The notes beneath the pieces were generated by a model. The model saw nothing but the letters and a program-made list of their open reading frames with translations. It was not told the DNA's origin and did not search any database. A DNA stretch of 46,136 bases from Caldifarciminota bacterium (lineage in GTDB: Bacteria; Hydrothermota; Tepidihabitantia; SM23-42). The translations under genes were made by a program, and so were the position numbers. How positions within the stretch are numbered: position 1 is the first letter of the stretch; every line of letters begins with the position of its first letter. Below are positions 5,867 through 11,534 of this stretch, piece after piece. The DNA is taken from positions 2,266,809-2,312,944 of the forward strand of contig CP070686.1 in assembly GCA_020353055.1 (NCBI GenBank). The letters are read 5' to 3'.

Positions 5867-5921
5867 CAAATACTCAAACCCCTGACTAGATCCCGGTTGG
5901 CGGTTGGAGGCGAGCGACAGG

Positions 5922-5949
5922 TTGACTTTTCGATTTTTTTAAATACAAT
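5922..5949 (+). promoter_or_regulatory. Promoter for parAB (leaderless)
   Basis: -35 TTGACT (5922-5927), 16-nt spacer, -10 TACAAT (5944-5949), then 7 nt to the parA ATG at 5957. Confidence 0.7.
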
Positions 5950-5956
5950 AGGCAAA

Positions 5957-6715
5957 ATGAAGAAGATTGCGATCTGCAATCAGAAGGGCGGTGTCGGCAA
6001 GACTGCGACCGCCGTGAACATAACGGCCGGGCTTTCGCTGGCCGAAAAGAACGTTCTGCTAATCGATATTGATCCTCAGGCCAATTCAACGAGTGGTTTA
6101 GGGATCGATTACAAAACCTTGGACAAGTCGATATACGATTGTCTTTACGAACCGAGTCTGGTCAGGGGGATCACCTTAAAGACAAAGTGGCCTCGGGTAT
6201 CGGTTCTTCCTTCGACCACCGACCTGGCCGGTGCCGAGATCGAACTCGTTGACGAAGCTGATCGTGAAGAGAAGTTAAAAAAGGTTCTTTCACTAATCGG
6301 TTTCGAATATGATTTTGGCATCATAGACTGCCCACCGTCGCTCGGTCTTCTTACGGTGAACGCATTAGTTGCCTGCGATAGTGTGATCATTCCGATCCAA
6401 TGTGAGTATTATGCTTTAGAAGGACTGGAGAAATTGTTGAAGACACTGAAAGCGATAAAGAACGATCTGAACAAGAACCTTGTTATCGAGGGTATCCTTC
6501 TGACGATGTATGACGCAAGATTGAACCTGGCAAAAGATGTCGTTGAGGATATCCAAACGCATTTCCCTGATGTTGTGTTCAAGACCGTGATCCCACGCTC
6601 GGTCAGGGTTGCCGAATCGCCTTCGCATGGAAAGTCAGCAATACACTACAATATCATTTCTGCCGGTGCTCAGGCTTATTTGAGTTTAACGAGGGAGCTT
6701 CTAAATCATGCGTAG
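5957..6715 (+). CDS. parA: Chromosome-partitioning ATPase ParA (Soj)
   Basis: Deviant Walker-type ATPase that binds nucleoid DNA as an ATP dimer and moves ParB-parS complexes to segregate origins. The protein is 252 aa, typical of chromosomal Soj-type ParA without an N-terminal HTH. It opens MKKIAICNQKGGVGKTATAV, with the deviant Walker A at about 10-17. LLIDIDPQANSTSGLG (switch/A') and GIIDCPPSLGLLTVNAL (Walker B) follow. The start at 5957 is fixed by the promoter 7 nt upstream and by family alignment; a longer frame from 5897 would cover the promoter. It overlaps parB by 8 nt. Genomic context with mnmG fits a location near the replication origin. Confidence 0.96.
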   Translation: MKKIAICNQKGGVGKTATAVNITAGLSLAEKNVLLIDIDPQANSTSGLGIDYKTLDKSIYDCLYEPSLVRGITLKTKWPRVSVLPSTTDLAGAEIELVDEADREEKLKKVLSLIGFEYDFGIIDCPPSLGLLTVNALVACDSVIIPIQCEYYALEGLEKLLKTLKAIKNDLNKNLVIEGILLTMYDARLNLAKDVVEDIQTHFPDVVFKTVIPRSVRVAESPSHGKSAIHYNIISAGAQAYLSLTRELLNHA

Positions 6716-7653: not shown

Positions 7654-7682
7654 TTGACTTGACAACAATTCTTAGTTATAAT
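7654..7682 (+). promoter_or_regulatory. Promoter for the Roadblock / tandem-DnaA-like operon (leaderless)
   Basis: -35 TTGACT (7654-7659), 17-nt spacer, -10 TATAAT (7677-7682), then 8 nt to the ATG at 7691. It separates this operon from parAB. Confidence 0.7.
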
Positions 7683-7690
7683 TTTTAGAA

Positions 7691-8098
7691 ATGCATATAC
7701 CCGAAGTAATCGTAATTTCAAAGAATAAATACGAAAAATTAGGGATTTTGCTTGAAGATTTCTGCAATCAGGCTAATACAATATGGGCGTTGTTTTCCAC
7801 CCTTGCTGGTCAACTGGTTGTCCAACGGGGCTTTGTTGATTCATTCGACGTTTTGACAATAAACGCGGTTGCTTGCAGTATCTTCAACTCAACTATGGAA
7901 CTTGCTCATATAGTCGGTGACAAGAAGTTTTCCAGTTTCTTACAAGAGGGAACCAGTGCAAGTATGTACTATACATGCATTAATGATGATTATCTGTTAG
8001 TTACCCTCTTTGATAGCCGCACGTTGCCCGGTTTGGTAAAGGTTGCATCCGCTGATTTTTGTGCCGAAGCGGTAAGAATACTGGAAACTGAGGGATGA
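7691..8098 (+). CDS. Roadblock/LC7-domain protein (MglB-like)
   Basis: 135-aa soluble protein matching the Roadblock/LC7 fold in size and pattern. An N-terminal helix is followed by a long amphipathic helix (SIFNSTMELAHIVG). A strand pair follows (SASMYYTCINDDYLLVTLFD), where a short-turn DD sits between strands, and then a closing helix (VRILETEG). Bacterial Roadblock proteins such as MglB act as GTPase regulators or polarity/scaffold components. No MglA-like small GTPase is present in the window; the next gene supplies two AAA+ domains instead. Its TGA overlaps the next gene's ATG (ATGA at 8095-8098), so the two are translationally coupled. The family call rests on pattern rather than a profile search. 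The start is set by the promoter 8 nt upstream. Confidence 0.72.
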   Translation: MHIPEVIVISKNKYEKLGILLEDFCNQANTIWALFSTLAGQLVVQRGFVDSFDVLTINAVACSIFNSTMELAHIVGDKKFSSFLQEGTSASMYYTCINDDYLLVTLFDSRTLPGLVKVASADFCAEAVRILETEG

Positions 8099-9909
8099 AA
8101 TCAGAATATACCTTCGATAGTTTTTATGTCTATGAGGGCAACAAAGTTGCCCTCAGCGCAGCTAAGAAGATAGTTGAGTTCCCAGGTGTGGTATTCAATC
8201 CCCTTTTTATTCATGGGGCTAAGGGCTTAGGTAAAACCCACCTGCTGTCAGCGATAAATTTCCAGTTGAAGAAGAAGCACTCTTCGGATTTCCTCACTGC
8301 AGAGCAATTTGAGAAAAAAATTGAGAGTCAAGGTGTATTTAACTCACCTCTGTTAGTTGATGATATTCATTTGGTCAACGATAAATACCAGAAACGATTG
8401 AAAGAAGTGGTAGAACACGCCCTGAAGGATAACATTCAGGTTTGTTTTTCTTCGGATGTCGCACCGCATGCTGTCAGCGGTTTCGACTCGAAACTCCGTA
8501 ATCTGATTGAGGGCGGACTCATTTGTGAGTTATCAGCACCCGAGGAGCCAATTCGACGAGAGATAATAAGAAGGGAGGCCGACGAATCCGGCATCATCCT
8601 TTCCGATGACATAGTCGATGAGTTGGCACGTATCCCGATTGATTCAGTGGGTACTATAGAAAATATGATAAAGCGTCTGGTGACCTATTCATCTCTTGGA
8701 AACCTGGCGATCGATGCAAATAGCATAAGACTAATTCTTAAGGGTTTGTTTTCTGAGAGGAAACCATGTTCTTTGCCTTCTTTACTAAGGGAATTTGGTG
8801 AAGGGGATATCTGGGCCCTAAAAGATATTGACGCACCACACGTAAAGGAAGAATACGAGAGGCGAATTTCTCTTTGGGAAAGAAAGGGTTTTAATGTTTC
8901 GTTTCTGAAACATGCGTTGTCGGACGACACGCTCGATTTAAGACGCTCGTATCATGAATATGTTGAACGCGTAAGACGGTTGATTAAACTGCAGACTACT
9001 TTTGCTAGCGTAGATCGGCGGAAGTCACCAACCGATGCGGTGAAGGTTGAGTTAAAGTTGCTCGACCCGGATAAAATCGAAGAAATAGAGGATCTCCTTA
9101 AGATATTTGATGAAGCTAAGGGAACCATGAAAGAACGTCGTAAATTCAATGAATTCATCCTGGGGTTCTGCAACAAGATGGTATGGGATGCATACCATGA
9201 AGAAGTCTTGGACAACCTTGGTATGTATAATCCGTTTGTCATTCTAGGCAATACGGGGACAGGGAAGACGCATTTTCTCGAAGCGGTCTGTGATGATCTC
9301 ATATCTCGTGAAAAATCGGTGAAGTTGCGTGATCTGGCACGTGAGCGCGACAGTGAATCTGTATCCTCTGCAGCCAACTATGATGTATTGATTCTCGACA
9401 ATTTTGATGTGGTCTTTAGCGCTTCTGAGAGTTTCATCAATGATATTGGCGAGCTTATTGATTCATTCCGAGATGAAGGTAAACAGGTCATCATCGCTTC
9501 CGTGCCGGCCGGTACGGGTACGGGGTTGCCGCCTTCATTGAAAGGTATTTTCGACGAAGGTAAGGTTGTAGAACTGGAAAAGCCTTCAGCCGATGTCATA
9601 ATAGAATACATCAAGCGAAAAGCATTCTCTGGGGCGGATGAATTTTTTGATGAAGGGATACCGGAATTCGAATCGTTTTATGAAATAGAATATTTTCTCC
9701 GTGGCGCAGGTAGAGAAGAGGAGGCGATTGTGCCTTTGGGTTTGCCTGGAGAGGATGAATCAGCGGAAATACCGATTGATGCTGCTGACGATATATCTGG
9801 TGAAAAACCGGTAAGAATCTCAGAGACAGAATCCAAAGTGGACCTCCACGATGATATCAATTACATGCTACCCGAGGTGCAAAGTGAGTTGTTGGCGGAA
9901 AAATTCTGA
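8095..9909 (+). CDS. Protein with two tandem DnaA-type AAA+ ATPase domains, no DNA-binding domain
   Basis: 604 aa. Domain 1 (about 5-220) reads like DnaA domain III: YTFDSFYVYEGNKVAL, then FNPLFIHGAKGLGKTHLLSA (Walker A 41-49) and LLVDDIHLV (Walker B, about 86-94). An alpha-helical linker with many charged residues follows (about 220-345). Domain 2 (about 349-512) repeats the pattern: FNEFILGFCNKMVWDAYHE, NPFVILGNTGTGKTHFLEA (Walker A 385-392) and VLILDNFDVV (Walker B, about 431-440). The tail (520-604) is acidic and probably disordered. DnaA's domain IV helix-turn-helix signature is absent, so this is unlikely to be the replication initiator. It overlaps the Roadblock gene by ATGA and is followed 38 nt later by a PATAN-TPR gene. 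An ATPase controlled by the Roadblock partner is plausible but inferred. Confidence 0.85.
   Translation: MKSEYTFDSFYVYEGNKVALSAAKKIVEFPGVVFNPLFIHGAKGLGKTHLLSAINFQLKKKHSSDFLTAEQFEKKIESQGVFNSPLLVDDIHLVNDKYQKRLKEVVEHALKDNIQVCFSSDVAPHAVSGFDSKLRNLIEGGLICELSAPEEPIRREIIRREADESGIILSDDIVDELARIPIDSVGTIENMIKRLVTYSSLGNLAIDANSIRLILKGLFSERKPCSLPSLLREFGEGDIWALKDIDAPHVKEEYERRISLWERKGFNVSFLKHALSDDTLDLRRSYHEYVERVRRLIKLQTTFASVDRRKSPTDAVKVELKLLDPDKIEEIEDLLKIFDEAKGTMKERRKFNEFILGFCNKMVWDAYHEEVLDNLGMYNPFVILGNTGTGKTHFLEAVCDDLISREKSVKLRDLARERDSESVSSAANYDVLILDNFDVVFSASESFINDIGELIDSFRDEGKQVIIASVPAGTGTGLPPSLKGIFDEGKVVELEKPSADVIIEYIKRKAFSGADEFFDEGIPEFESFYEIEYFLRGAGREEEAIVPLGLPGEDESAEIPIDAADDISGEKPVRISETESKVDLHDDINYMLPEVQSELLAEKF
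8894..8913. repeat. parS-like inverted repeat with wrong spacing, inside a coding region
   Basis: ATGTTTC (8894-8900) and GAAACAT (8907-8913) are perfect inverted arms with a 6-nt spacer. Canonical parS has TGTTTC and GAAACA arms with a 4-nt centre (ACGT). Here the centre is GTTTCT, so binding by ParB is doubtful. It lies about 1.3 kb downstream of parB. Confidence 0.3.
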
Positions 9910-9947
9910 GAGACCGGGTTTTTCCGGGAAGATCATAGGGGATAATT

Positions 9948-11534
9948 GTGGCCATTAAAGGTTCGTTGGTTGAAGCTTCACTTCCCGAGGTGATCCAGCT
10001 TCTTGCTTATTCCCTTAAATCTGGTTGTTTATCAGTGACCGACGGCAGGAATTTCGGTAATATCTTCCTGCAGGGTGGTAACATAATTTACGCAACGATC
10101 CTCAAACGCGGGGTCCGGTTGGGAGATTCATTGCTTGGGAGGAATCTGTTTGATAAGAGCATTCTCAAACAGGCTTTGAGTGTGCAGAAAGAGAAGAAGG
10201 AAAGGCTCGGCGAAATTCTGGTTGAAATGGGTGCGATATCGAGACAAATTCTCGAAGAAGAGTTGAAACGCCAGATCGAAGATGCGATATTCACTATGCT
10301 TACGTGGGATAAGGGGTATTTCAATTTTGAAGCAGGTCTATTGCCATCGCCTCGTGAGCATACTATCCAACTTTCCGCACAGGATATATTGCTCGGGAGT
10401 GCGAGACGTATCGCAACGTGGAAAGAAATTCAGGAGAGATTACCGGATTCCGAGACAATCTTGATTGTGAAAGAAGATGGCAAGAATCTGGAGCTTACTG
10501 AGATGGAAAAGAAAATCCTGGGGTTGATTGATGGTGAAAAGAGTGTCGATGAGGTTGTCAAAAAATCCGGGATCGATTTCAAAGATGCGTGTAAGGCAGT
10601 ATATGTGCTGTTGACCGCTGGCGTCATTGAACAACCGAAGACTCGCGTTGAGAAAAAACCAGTGTCTGGTGCTGCAGCTGAGCATATGGATATGGGTTTA
10701 GCACTTTATCAGAGTAACAGGTATGACGAGGCTGAAAGAGAATTCAAGAAAGTCGCAGATGACGATCCTGATAATGCCGAGATTCTATTCTATCTTGGCA
10801 TGATTGAATTGATGCGGGGCAATGATGACGGGGCCAAGGAATATCTCGGGACCTTACTTCAAAAGGAAAGGCGTGTCTCGGTACTGGTCAATCTTGGGTA
10901 TCTCTTCAGCAGAATGAAGCGCTTCGAAGAGGCGCGTGATTTGCTGGAGGAAGCGCGTGAAAGCGAACCGGATAATCTGAAGATTATTCTGAACCTTGCG
11001 ATAGCGAATTATCATCTGAATGAACTGGACGTTTCAACCACGATTTTTAAGCGCAGTCTTGATATTTCCAAAGATATTGTAACCCCTTATCTTTATCTAT
11101 CACTCATAAGTGCTAAGACCGGCGATGTGGACGTGGCGATTGATTGGCTCTCAGATGCGATCCAGAGGTTTCCAAGGTTCGCGGCGCTTAAGAATAATCT
11201 TGGGTTACTATATGAGAATATAGGTAACTACGAAGATGCCGAGGATCTTTACCATGAGGCCCTGTCGCTACAGCCCGGGGACACTGTGTTACTGAGAAAT
11301 ATCGCAAATCTCTACTATCAACTTGGATTTTACGGGGCCGCTTGCGATTATTACGAGCAGATTCCCGATAGTGAACGCGATGTTCTGACTCTGAGAAAAC
11401 TTGGTCGTGTCTATCTGTTGAAGGGCGATGAGAAAGGTGCGCTGAGTCAATTAAGAAATGCCCAGGTGTTGGATCTGCAGAACGACCGGTTAAGGCAGGA
11501 CATTGAGATCCTTAGTGATTTGGTATCGGAATAG
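9948..11534 (+). CDS. PATAN (DUF4388) domain protein with TPR repeats
   Basis: 528-aa cytoplasmic protein. The N-terminal PATAN/DUF4388 domain (about 3-100) shows the typical GSLVEASLPEVIQLLAYSLK start and the FLQGGNIIYATI strand, then RLGEILVEMGAIS and DAIFTMLTWDKGYFNFE. A winged-helix-like segment (about 185-230, MEKKILGLIDGEKSVDEVV) follows. From about 245 to the end lie roughly eight TPR-like helical repeats (for example LYQSNRYDEAEREFKKVADDD and FAALKNNLGLLYENIGNYED). PATAN proteins are often signalling or motility scaffolds, and TPRs mediate protein contacts. The start is GTG at 9948, preceded by an AGGGG Shine-Dalgarno. It follows the tandem ATPase gene by 38 nt in the same direction, so it is probably the scaffold of that operon. 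Confidence 0.88.
   Translation: MAIKGSLVEASLPEVIQLLAYSLKSGCLSVTDGRNFGNIFLQGGNIIYATILKRGVRLGDSLLGRNLFDKSILKQALSVQKEKKERLGEILVEMGAISRQILEEELKRQIEDAIFTMLTWDKGYFNFEAGLLPSPREHTIQLSAQDILLGSARRIATWKEIQERLPDSETILIVKEDGKNLELTEMEKKILGLIDGEKSVDEVVKKSGIDFKDACKAVYVLLTAGVIEQPKTRVEKKPVSGAAAEHMDMGLALYQSNRYDEAEREFKKVADDDPDNAEILFYLGMIELMRGNDDGAKEYLGTLLQKERRVSVLVNLGYLFSRMKRFEEARDLLEEARESEPDNLKIILNLAIANYHLNELDVSTTIFKRSLDISKDIVTPYLYLSLISAKTGDVDVAIDWLSDAIQRFPRFAALKNNLGLLYENIGNYEDAEDLYHEALSLQPGDTVLLRNIANLYYQLGFYGAACDYYEQIPDSERDVLTLRKLGRVYLLKGDEKGALSQLRNAQVLDLQNDRLRQDIEILSDLVSE

Follow-up and report, generated by a model that had tools for sequence, protein, structure and literature searches.

A tandem DnaA-like AAA+ protein as a probable new component of MglA/MglB polarity gene clusters in candidate division WOR-3

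The question raised by this locus is what a protein built from two DnaA-like ATPase modules does when its gene stands between one for a small Roadblock protein and one for a PATAN-TPR protein, just downstream of parAB. The window, which is the whole stretch of 46,136 nucleotides that was analyzed (C1:2266809-2312944), belongs to a single-contig genome of 2.69 Mb from candidate division WOR-3/Stahlbacteria (NCBI phylum Caldifarciminota), and no Rfam RNA was matched within it. An earlier note had described three consecutive reading frames, and these do lie at the coordinates it gave (7691-8098, 8095-9909, and 9948-11534), the first two sharing an ATGA overlap and the second and third separated by 38 nt. 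It had further proposed that a DnaA paralog became a switch under the control of its Roadblock neighbor, with a possible link to ParAB. The features that matter here are the following:

7654..7682, plus strand: sigma-70-type promoter of near-consensus sequence, TTGACT-17-TATAAT
7691..8098, plus strand: MglB-type Roadblock/LC7 protein, 135 aa (from PDB MglB, NCBIfam MglB, and orthologs)
8095..9909, plus strand: tandem DnaA-like AAA+ protein, 604 aa (from Pfam Bac_DnaA in two stretches and predicted structure)
8215..8238, plus strand: module 1 Walker A, GAKGLGKT, aa 41-48
8350..8370, plus strand: module 1 Walker B, LLVDDIH, aa 86-92
8494..8520, plus strand: former box VII of module 1, LRNLIEGGL, aa 134-142; the genus no longer has the SRLEGGL arginine
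8641..8667, plus strand: former sensor 2 of module 1, DSVGTIENM, aa 183-191; the genus no longer has the GSIRTIEGM arginine
8827..9117, plus strand: middle helical domain, aa 245-341, with a WExKGF motif
9247..9270, plus strand: module 2 Walker A, GNTGTGKT, aa 385-392
9385..9405, plus strand: module 2 Walker B, VLILDNF, aa 431-437
9712..9906, plus strand: disordered C-terminal tail (pLDDT ~30) with a VPLGLPGE motif and a conserved extreme end that reads ELLAEKF here and ELIEENY in relatives
9948..11534, plus strand: PATAN-TPR protein, 528 aa (from DUF4388, TPR matches, and predicted structure)
10116..10274, plus strand: MshEN-type c-di-GMP motif, aa 57-109, which makes up the helical insert within PATAN

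The claim that the 604-aa protein carries two AAA+ modules of the DnaA domain III type, each with Walker A and Walker B, is borne out by the agreement of Pfam Bac_DnaA (134 bits over two stretches, with module 2 alone reaching 36.7 bits, above the cut-off), the DnaA model TIGR00362, and the predicted structure (mean pLDDT 76, with the modules mostly at 80-95). A structure search with the predicted model, which covered mainly residues 1-294, superposed module 1 on DnaA domain III with a Z of ~25 and an rmsd of 2.4-2.7 A over 216-219 residues, and on Hda with a Z of 18-20. Scores against the corresponding curated models remain below their cut-offs, both for DnaA (193.7 bits versus 343.9 for TIGR00362) and for Hda (100.2 bits versus 194.8 for TIGR03420). 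Because the TIGR00362 match stops at model position 342 of 437, the DNA-binding domain IV is missing, as the earlier note had stated. The protein is not the only DnaA of the genome, since a separate full-length dnaA is present as a 449-aa frame at C1:2668654. A plasmid origin was considered and rejected, the best matches in the plasmid collection being at ~25-28%, an ordinary DnaA-level similarity. Beyond the phylum, where the search for the middle domain used a single narrow peptide pattern, homologs were recovered from a second phylum, in a MAG labelled Gemmatimonadetes (J002) and in one further genome. Both modules of the J002 homolog are intact and 41-52% identical to DnaA; therefore, both modules derive from DnaA.

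The best conserved part of the protein across the phylum is the middle domain, above either P-loop, with W261, G265, and P325 invariant, and searches of Pfam, NCBIfam, and PDB sequences gave it no convincing match. Module 1 has lost its P-loop in family f11, as has module 2 in f21, R replaces K in module 2 of two genomes (G079 and G081), and the whole of module 2 is missing from f30, from one genome of f15, and from two members of the window's genus. Almost everywhere, at least one module still has its Walker A and B. At two loci of the window's genus (L060:1872-3152 and L061:9130-10386), module 2 has been removed by an internal deletion, with VPLGLPGE and the C-terminus retained. The box VII and sensor-2 arginines of module 1 are gone in the window and its genus, where SRLEGGL of box VII has become RNLIEGGL, and are kept in most of f1 and in f2. 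Because the middle domain persists even where one of the AAA+ modules has lost its P-loop or is missing, the sequences appear to fit a nucleotide-dependent scaffold or switch better than a processive motor. The extreme C-terminus is likewise conserved across families (ELIEENY, ERIFEDYP, FRLIEEY, ERLINDY, or TRLDMEL), and our guess is that this end of the disordered tail is a docking peptide for TPRs.

The 135-aa protein encoded upstream had been read as Roadblock-like, an identity that can be narrowed to the MglB type. Although its score against Pfam Robl_LC7 falls short of significance, the NCBIfam MglB model (NF052242) matches residues 8-126 with E 4.4e-8, the solved Myxococcus MglB (6h5b_B) matches the protein over its full length (residues 8-132, E 5.3e-9), and MglB orthologs are encoded immediately upstream of the ATPase gene in 27 loci. 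We call it MglB-type rather than an NF052242 equivalog because its 33.4 bits lie below the curated equivalog cut-off of 200. The client of known type for such a protein is the GTPase MglA, on which it is predicted to have GAP activity, and linkage of the two genes is seen in relatives, with the order mglA-mglB-ATPase in L050, L052-L054, L057-L059, and others. A second MglA/MglB pair is encoded in the same genome (L083:9113-10243; G000:C1:1282130-1283194), and its MglB fits the NCBIfam model better, at 95.6 bits. Another region (L084; G000:C1:313000-332500) holds two pilT-like genes, accB/accC-like genes, and a TPR792 - TPR+Roadblock - small Roadblock set.

The assignment of the third protein to the PATAN-TPR type holds as well, with 101.9 bits against DUF4388 (PF14332; gathering score 25) and additional TPR matches. 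Its residues 57-109 score 43.0 bits against the curated MshEN motif model NF053729 (cut-off 38) and contain a pair of 24-residue motifs spaced by 5 residues, the first of which has N for the conserved G (motif definition in PMC5013675). Both MshEN halves occur in only 8 of 45 PATAN-TPR orthologs under a relaxed pattern. The protein may read c-di-GMP through this predicted insert, an input that is plausible because the window genome has ten GGDEF matches.

Relatives provide the most important constraint on what these genes do together. We searched for the ATPase in 147 genomes of the phylum, fetched up to ~10 kb on each side, and mapped the genes by phmmer; gene calls were mechanical, and the adjacency counts derive from those calls. 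Co-occurrence of the three genes, for which the earlier note had proposed a survey, is strongly conserved: a profile of the middle domain (alignment A2) matched 55 of the 147 genomes, with one copy each except for one genome with two, and at 47 of the 53 loci measured, the gene that adjoins the ATPase gene upstream is mglA (20) or mglB (27), mostly with a short overlap, usually of 4 nt. Genomes with a hit for the middle domain bear WOR-3/Stahlbacteria names. Among the six exceptions, one has another small Roadblock-like protein upstream (L067), two have unrelated genes there (L070 and L072), two are limited by contig ends, and one is the second copy in G088 (L047; G088:C1:268000-287000), which is partly N-masked and has no mglA or mglB nearby. 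The common order is mglA-(mglB)-ATPase-PATAN/TPR-cheR-cheD-cheB-TPR, followed in f1 and f2 by an inositol monophosphatase gene; in f21 the set is mglB-ATPase-PATAN-cheR. The pilus motor gene pilT is the immediate 5' neighbor of mglA in both f11 and f12; in f16 and f28-f31 it is one or two genes away, and the arrangement accB-pilT-accC beside mglA recurs in these last families. Because gene order is conserved over many families, a chance arrangement is excluded.

In seven families (f11, f12, f16, and f28-f31), MglA touches the ATPase and no MglB is adjacent. The Roadblock protein and the ATPase are thereby ruled out as the core pair, since mglA replaces mglB beside the ATPase. Of the proposal that a DnaA paralog turned into a switch under Roadblock control, the paralog lacking a DNA-binding domain and the polarity context stand, and Roadblock control is not core. 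The translational overlap of the ATPase gene with mglA or mglB might instead suggest an enzyme-like regulator of the MglA cycle, either a stimulator of the MglB GAP resembling RomY or an exchange factor resembling RomR/RomX, with ATP resetting the switch. MglB is the GAP of MglA and needs a partner, RomY (PMC9481161), and the near-universal retention of one Walker A/B set would suit such an enzyme. We regard this as doubtful, given the seven families with no mglB adjoining the ATPase gene and the disappearance from the window's genus of the box VII and sensor-2 arginines, which are hydrolysis features.

Co-occurrence extends to genes outside the operon. MglA is found in 54 of the 55 ATPase genomes versus 42 of the 92 others (Fisher p 2e-12), PilT in 55 of 55 versus 67 of 92 (p 2e-6), and CheA in 42 of 55 versus 3 of 92 (p 1e-21), with kinship ignored in all of these tests; the sole ATPase genome without MglA is an assembly that is 76% complete. 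Genomes of f3, f22, and f23 have MglA, no PilT match, and no ATPase. Pfam confirms CheR, CheD, CheB, CheW, response regulator, CheA domains, and CheC in the clusters, and one cluster (L104) includes CheW, CheY, CheA, and CheC. The extended order cheW-cheY-cheA-cheC-TPR-TPR/Roadblock-Roadblock-like-ATPase-PATAN-cheR-cheD-cheB, seen in L104:918-10666 and in L068, appears to encode a chemosensory system that is almost complete and includes several Roadblock proteins. In the second phylum, a DUF4388 gene lies near the ATPase gene in two of three copies, and one cluster (L156) has CheA, CheW, and CheC; an AAA_22 ATPase and a CheW-domain protein are encoded between CheA and CheC there (L156:2251-4022).

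Such associations could mean that the AAA+ and PATAN-TPR proteins are CheA-pathway adaptors of a chemosensory array, for which MglA/MglB would be one output only. CheA is almost confined to ATPase genomes, cheR, cheD, and cheB come after the PATAN gene in most families, and CheA falls within the cluster in two phyla. The window's genus decides us against this, however, and we think it quite improbable: its eight genomes have no CheA and no CheB match, and the genus nonetheless still encodes MglB, the ATPase, and PATAN-TPR, as well as an MglA at another site. Because the ATPase outlasted CheA and CheB there, the AAA+ protein is independent of Che, and the chemosensory half of the cluster is dispensable in this genus.

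The same genus accounts for the position of the operon beside parAB. At C1:2004002-2004595 the window genome encodes an ortholog of operon-type MglA (71% identical; E 1.8e-68 against solved MglA), through which the identity of operon-type MglA was verified, and the old upstream genes, encoding a small membrane protein, a DHH protein, and MglA, are together at C1:2.00 Mb. The operon broke just after mglA, before mglB, and what follows parAB today is the mglB-ATPase-PATAN-phosphatase half. The TTGACT-17-TATAAT element stands directly 5' of mglB in seven of seven locus-bearing genomes of genus g1, window included, and its -10 ends 8 nt upstream of the mglB ATG, a position from which the operon transcript is probably leaderless. 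ParA itself (ORF 5897-6715) probably starts at 5957 (MKKIAI...) rather than at the TTG at 5897; a promoter-like TTGACT-16-TACAAT at 5922-5949, directly before that start, suggests a leaderless transcript there too.

Because the mglB half has its own conserved promoter, lying between parB and mglB, the parAB adjacency looks incidental. Coupling to ParAB, as once proposed for this locus, is not supported, given that promoter and the restriction of the adjacency to genus g1. This also weighs on the idea that the AAA+ protein is a DnaA/Hda-like regulator of replication or chromosome position, tying ParAB or the origin to polarity, which we hold to be very improbable. Its nearest structures are indeed DnaA and Hda, and parAB is directly upstream in the genus; against this, domain IV is absent, mglB is separately promoted beside a parAB found there in g1 only, dnaA is 0.39 Mb away, and elsewhere the cluster has mglA, pilT, and che genes and no replication genes.

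Judging from gene content and family assignments, we favor as probable the reading that the cluster is a polarity module for type IV pili, based on MglA/MglB, whose new component is an AAA+ switch or scaffold derived from DnaA. The three window genes would be the remnant of a phylum-wide (pilT)-mglA-(mglB)-AAA+-PATAN/TPR-cheR-cheD-cheB-TPR cluster that controls the place and timing of type IV pilus action. In line with the established behavior of MglA/MglB, MglA-GTP would label the active pole and MglB would switch MglA off; the AAA+ protein would act as an ATP-dependent scaffold or switch, contacting MglA/MglB and coupling them to PATAN-TPR through its middle domain and C-terminal tail; and the PATAN-TPR protein would act on the pilus motors, possibly sensing c-di-GMP through its MshEN insert. 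The DnaA-derived ATPase probably belongs, as a part not described so far, to the machinery by which a bacterium chooses where its pili pull. Counting against the full polarity-module reading are the loss of CheA and CheB from the window's genus, the absence of MglB from the cluster in seven families, and the patchy occurrence of the paired MshEN motif among PATAN-TPR orthologs. More tentatively, it is possible that a duplicated replication-initiator ATPase became an ATP-loaded AAA+ switch that sets the state or pole of MglA, replacing RomR/RomX/RomY-type factors, and relays it, together with chemosensory and c-di-GMP input, via PATAN-TPR to the pilus motors.

Part of this association has precedents. 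Makarova reportedly placed MglA/MglB genes beside PATAN-domain genes in 2006. Some Group 1 and Group 5 MglA genes and MglB genes are near PATAN genes (PMC4316618, Wuichet and Sogaard-Andersen 2014), and in the text of that survey the word DnaA is absent and no DnaA-like gene figures in the reported association. Our literature search, which had most subscription papers outside its scope so that absence is unproven, returned no description of a DnaA-like protein in MglA systems and no paper combining MglA, MglB, DnaA, and Roadblock. Thus, the proximity of MglA/MglB and PATAN genes is already known, and the DnaA-derived ATPase would be a new component of a known kind of system. Polar placement and switching of small Ras-like GTPases are known in detail in few organisms, mainly Myxococcus (RomR, RomX, RomY, and SgmX). 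If our reading is correct, a DnaA-derived AAA+ protein tied to MglA/MglB by operon structure across a phylum would be a new kind of regulator and a case of a replication AAA+ module re-used for polarity, with a defined gene set for testing.

The closest known system is that of Myxococcus xanthus, in which GTP-bound MglA identifies the leading pole, a TPR protein mediates its action on pili (PMC7519303), and a chemosensory system reverses polarity (PMC3441718). MglA and MglB are both present in the window genome, and MglA/MglB homologs, a TPR protein, chemosensory genes, and type IV pilus motors are shared with the Myxococcus set (Frz, RomR/RomX, RomY, and SgmX; PMC3441718, PMC7519303, PMC9481161), whereas no DnaA-derived AAA+ protein is described there and the gene order and the PATAN/MshEN component differ. 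With DnaA domain III and Hda the window protein shares the fold of module 1; unlike them, it has two modules per chain, a private middle domain, a conserved tail, no domain IV, and another gene context, in a genome with a separate dnaA. The cyanobacterial proteins PixE, PixG, and LsiR likewise link PATAN to type IV pili, PixE through the pilus motor PilB1, which cyanobacterial PATAN proteins bind (PMC9090330, PMC7690835), but these are CheY-like response regulators for which no MglA/MglB or AAA+ partner is described, whereas the window protein has TPRs. Finally, the MshEN receptor of MshE/PilB has the same paired motifs and spacer as the window protein, where by contrast the MshEN motif is an insert in a PATAN domain and its first motif has N instead of G.
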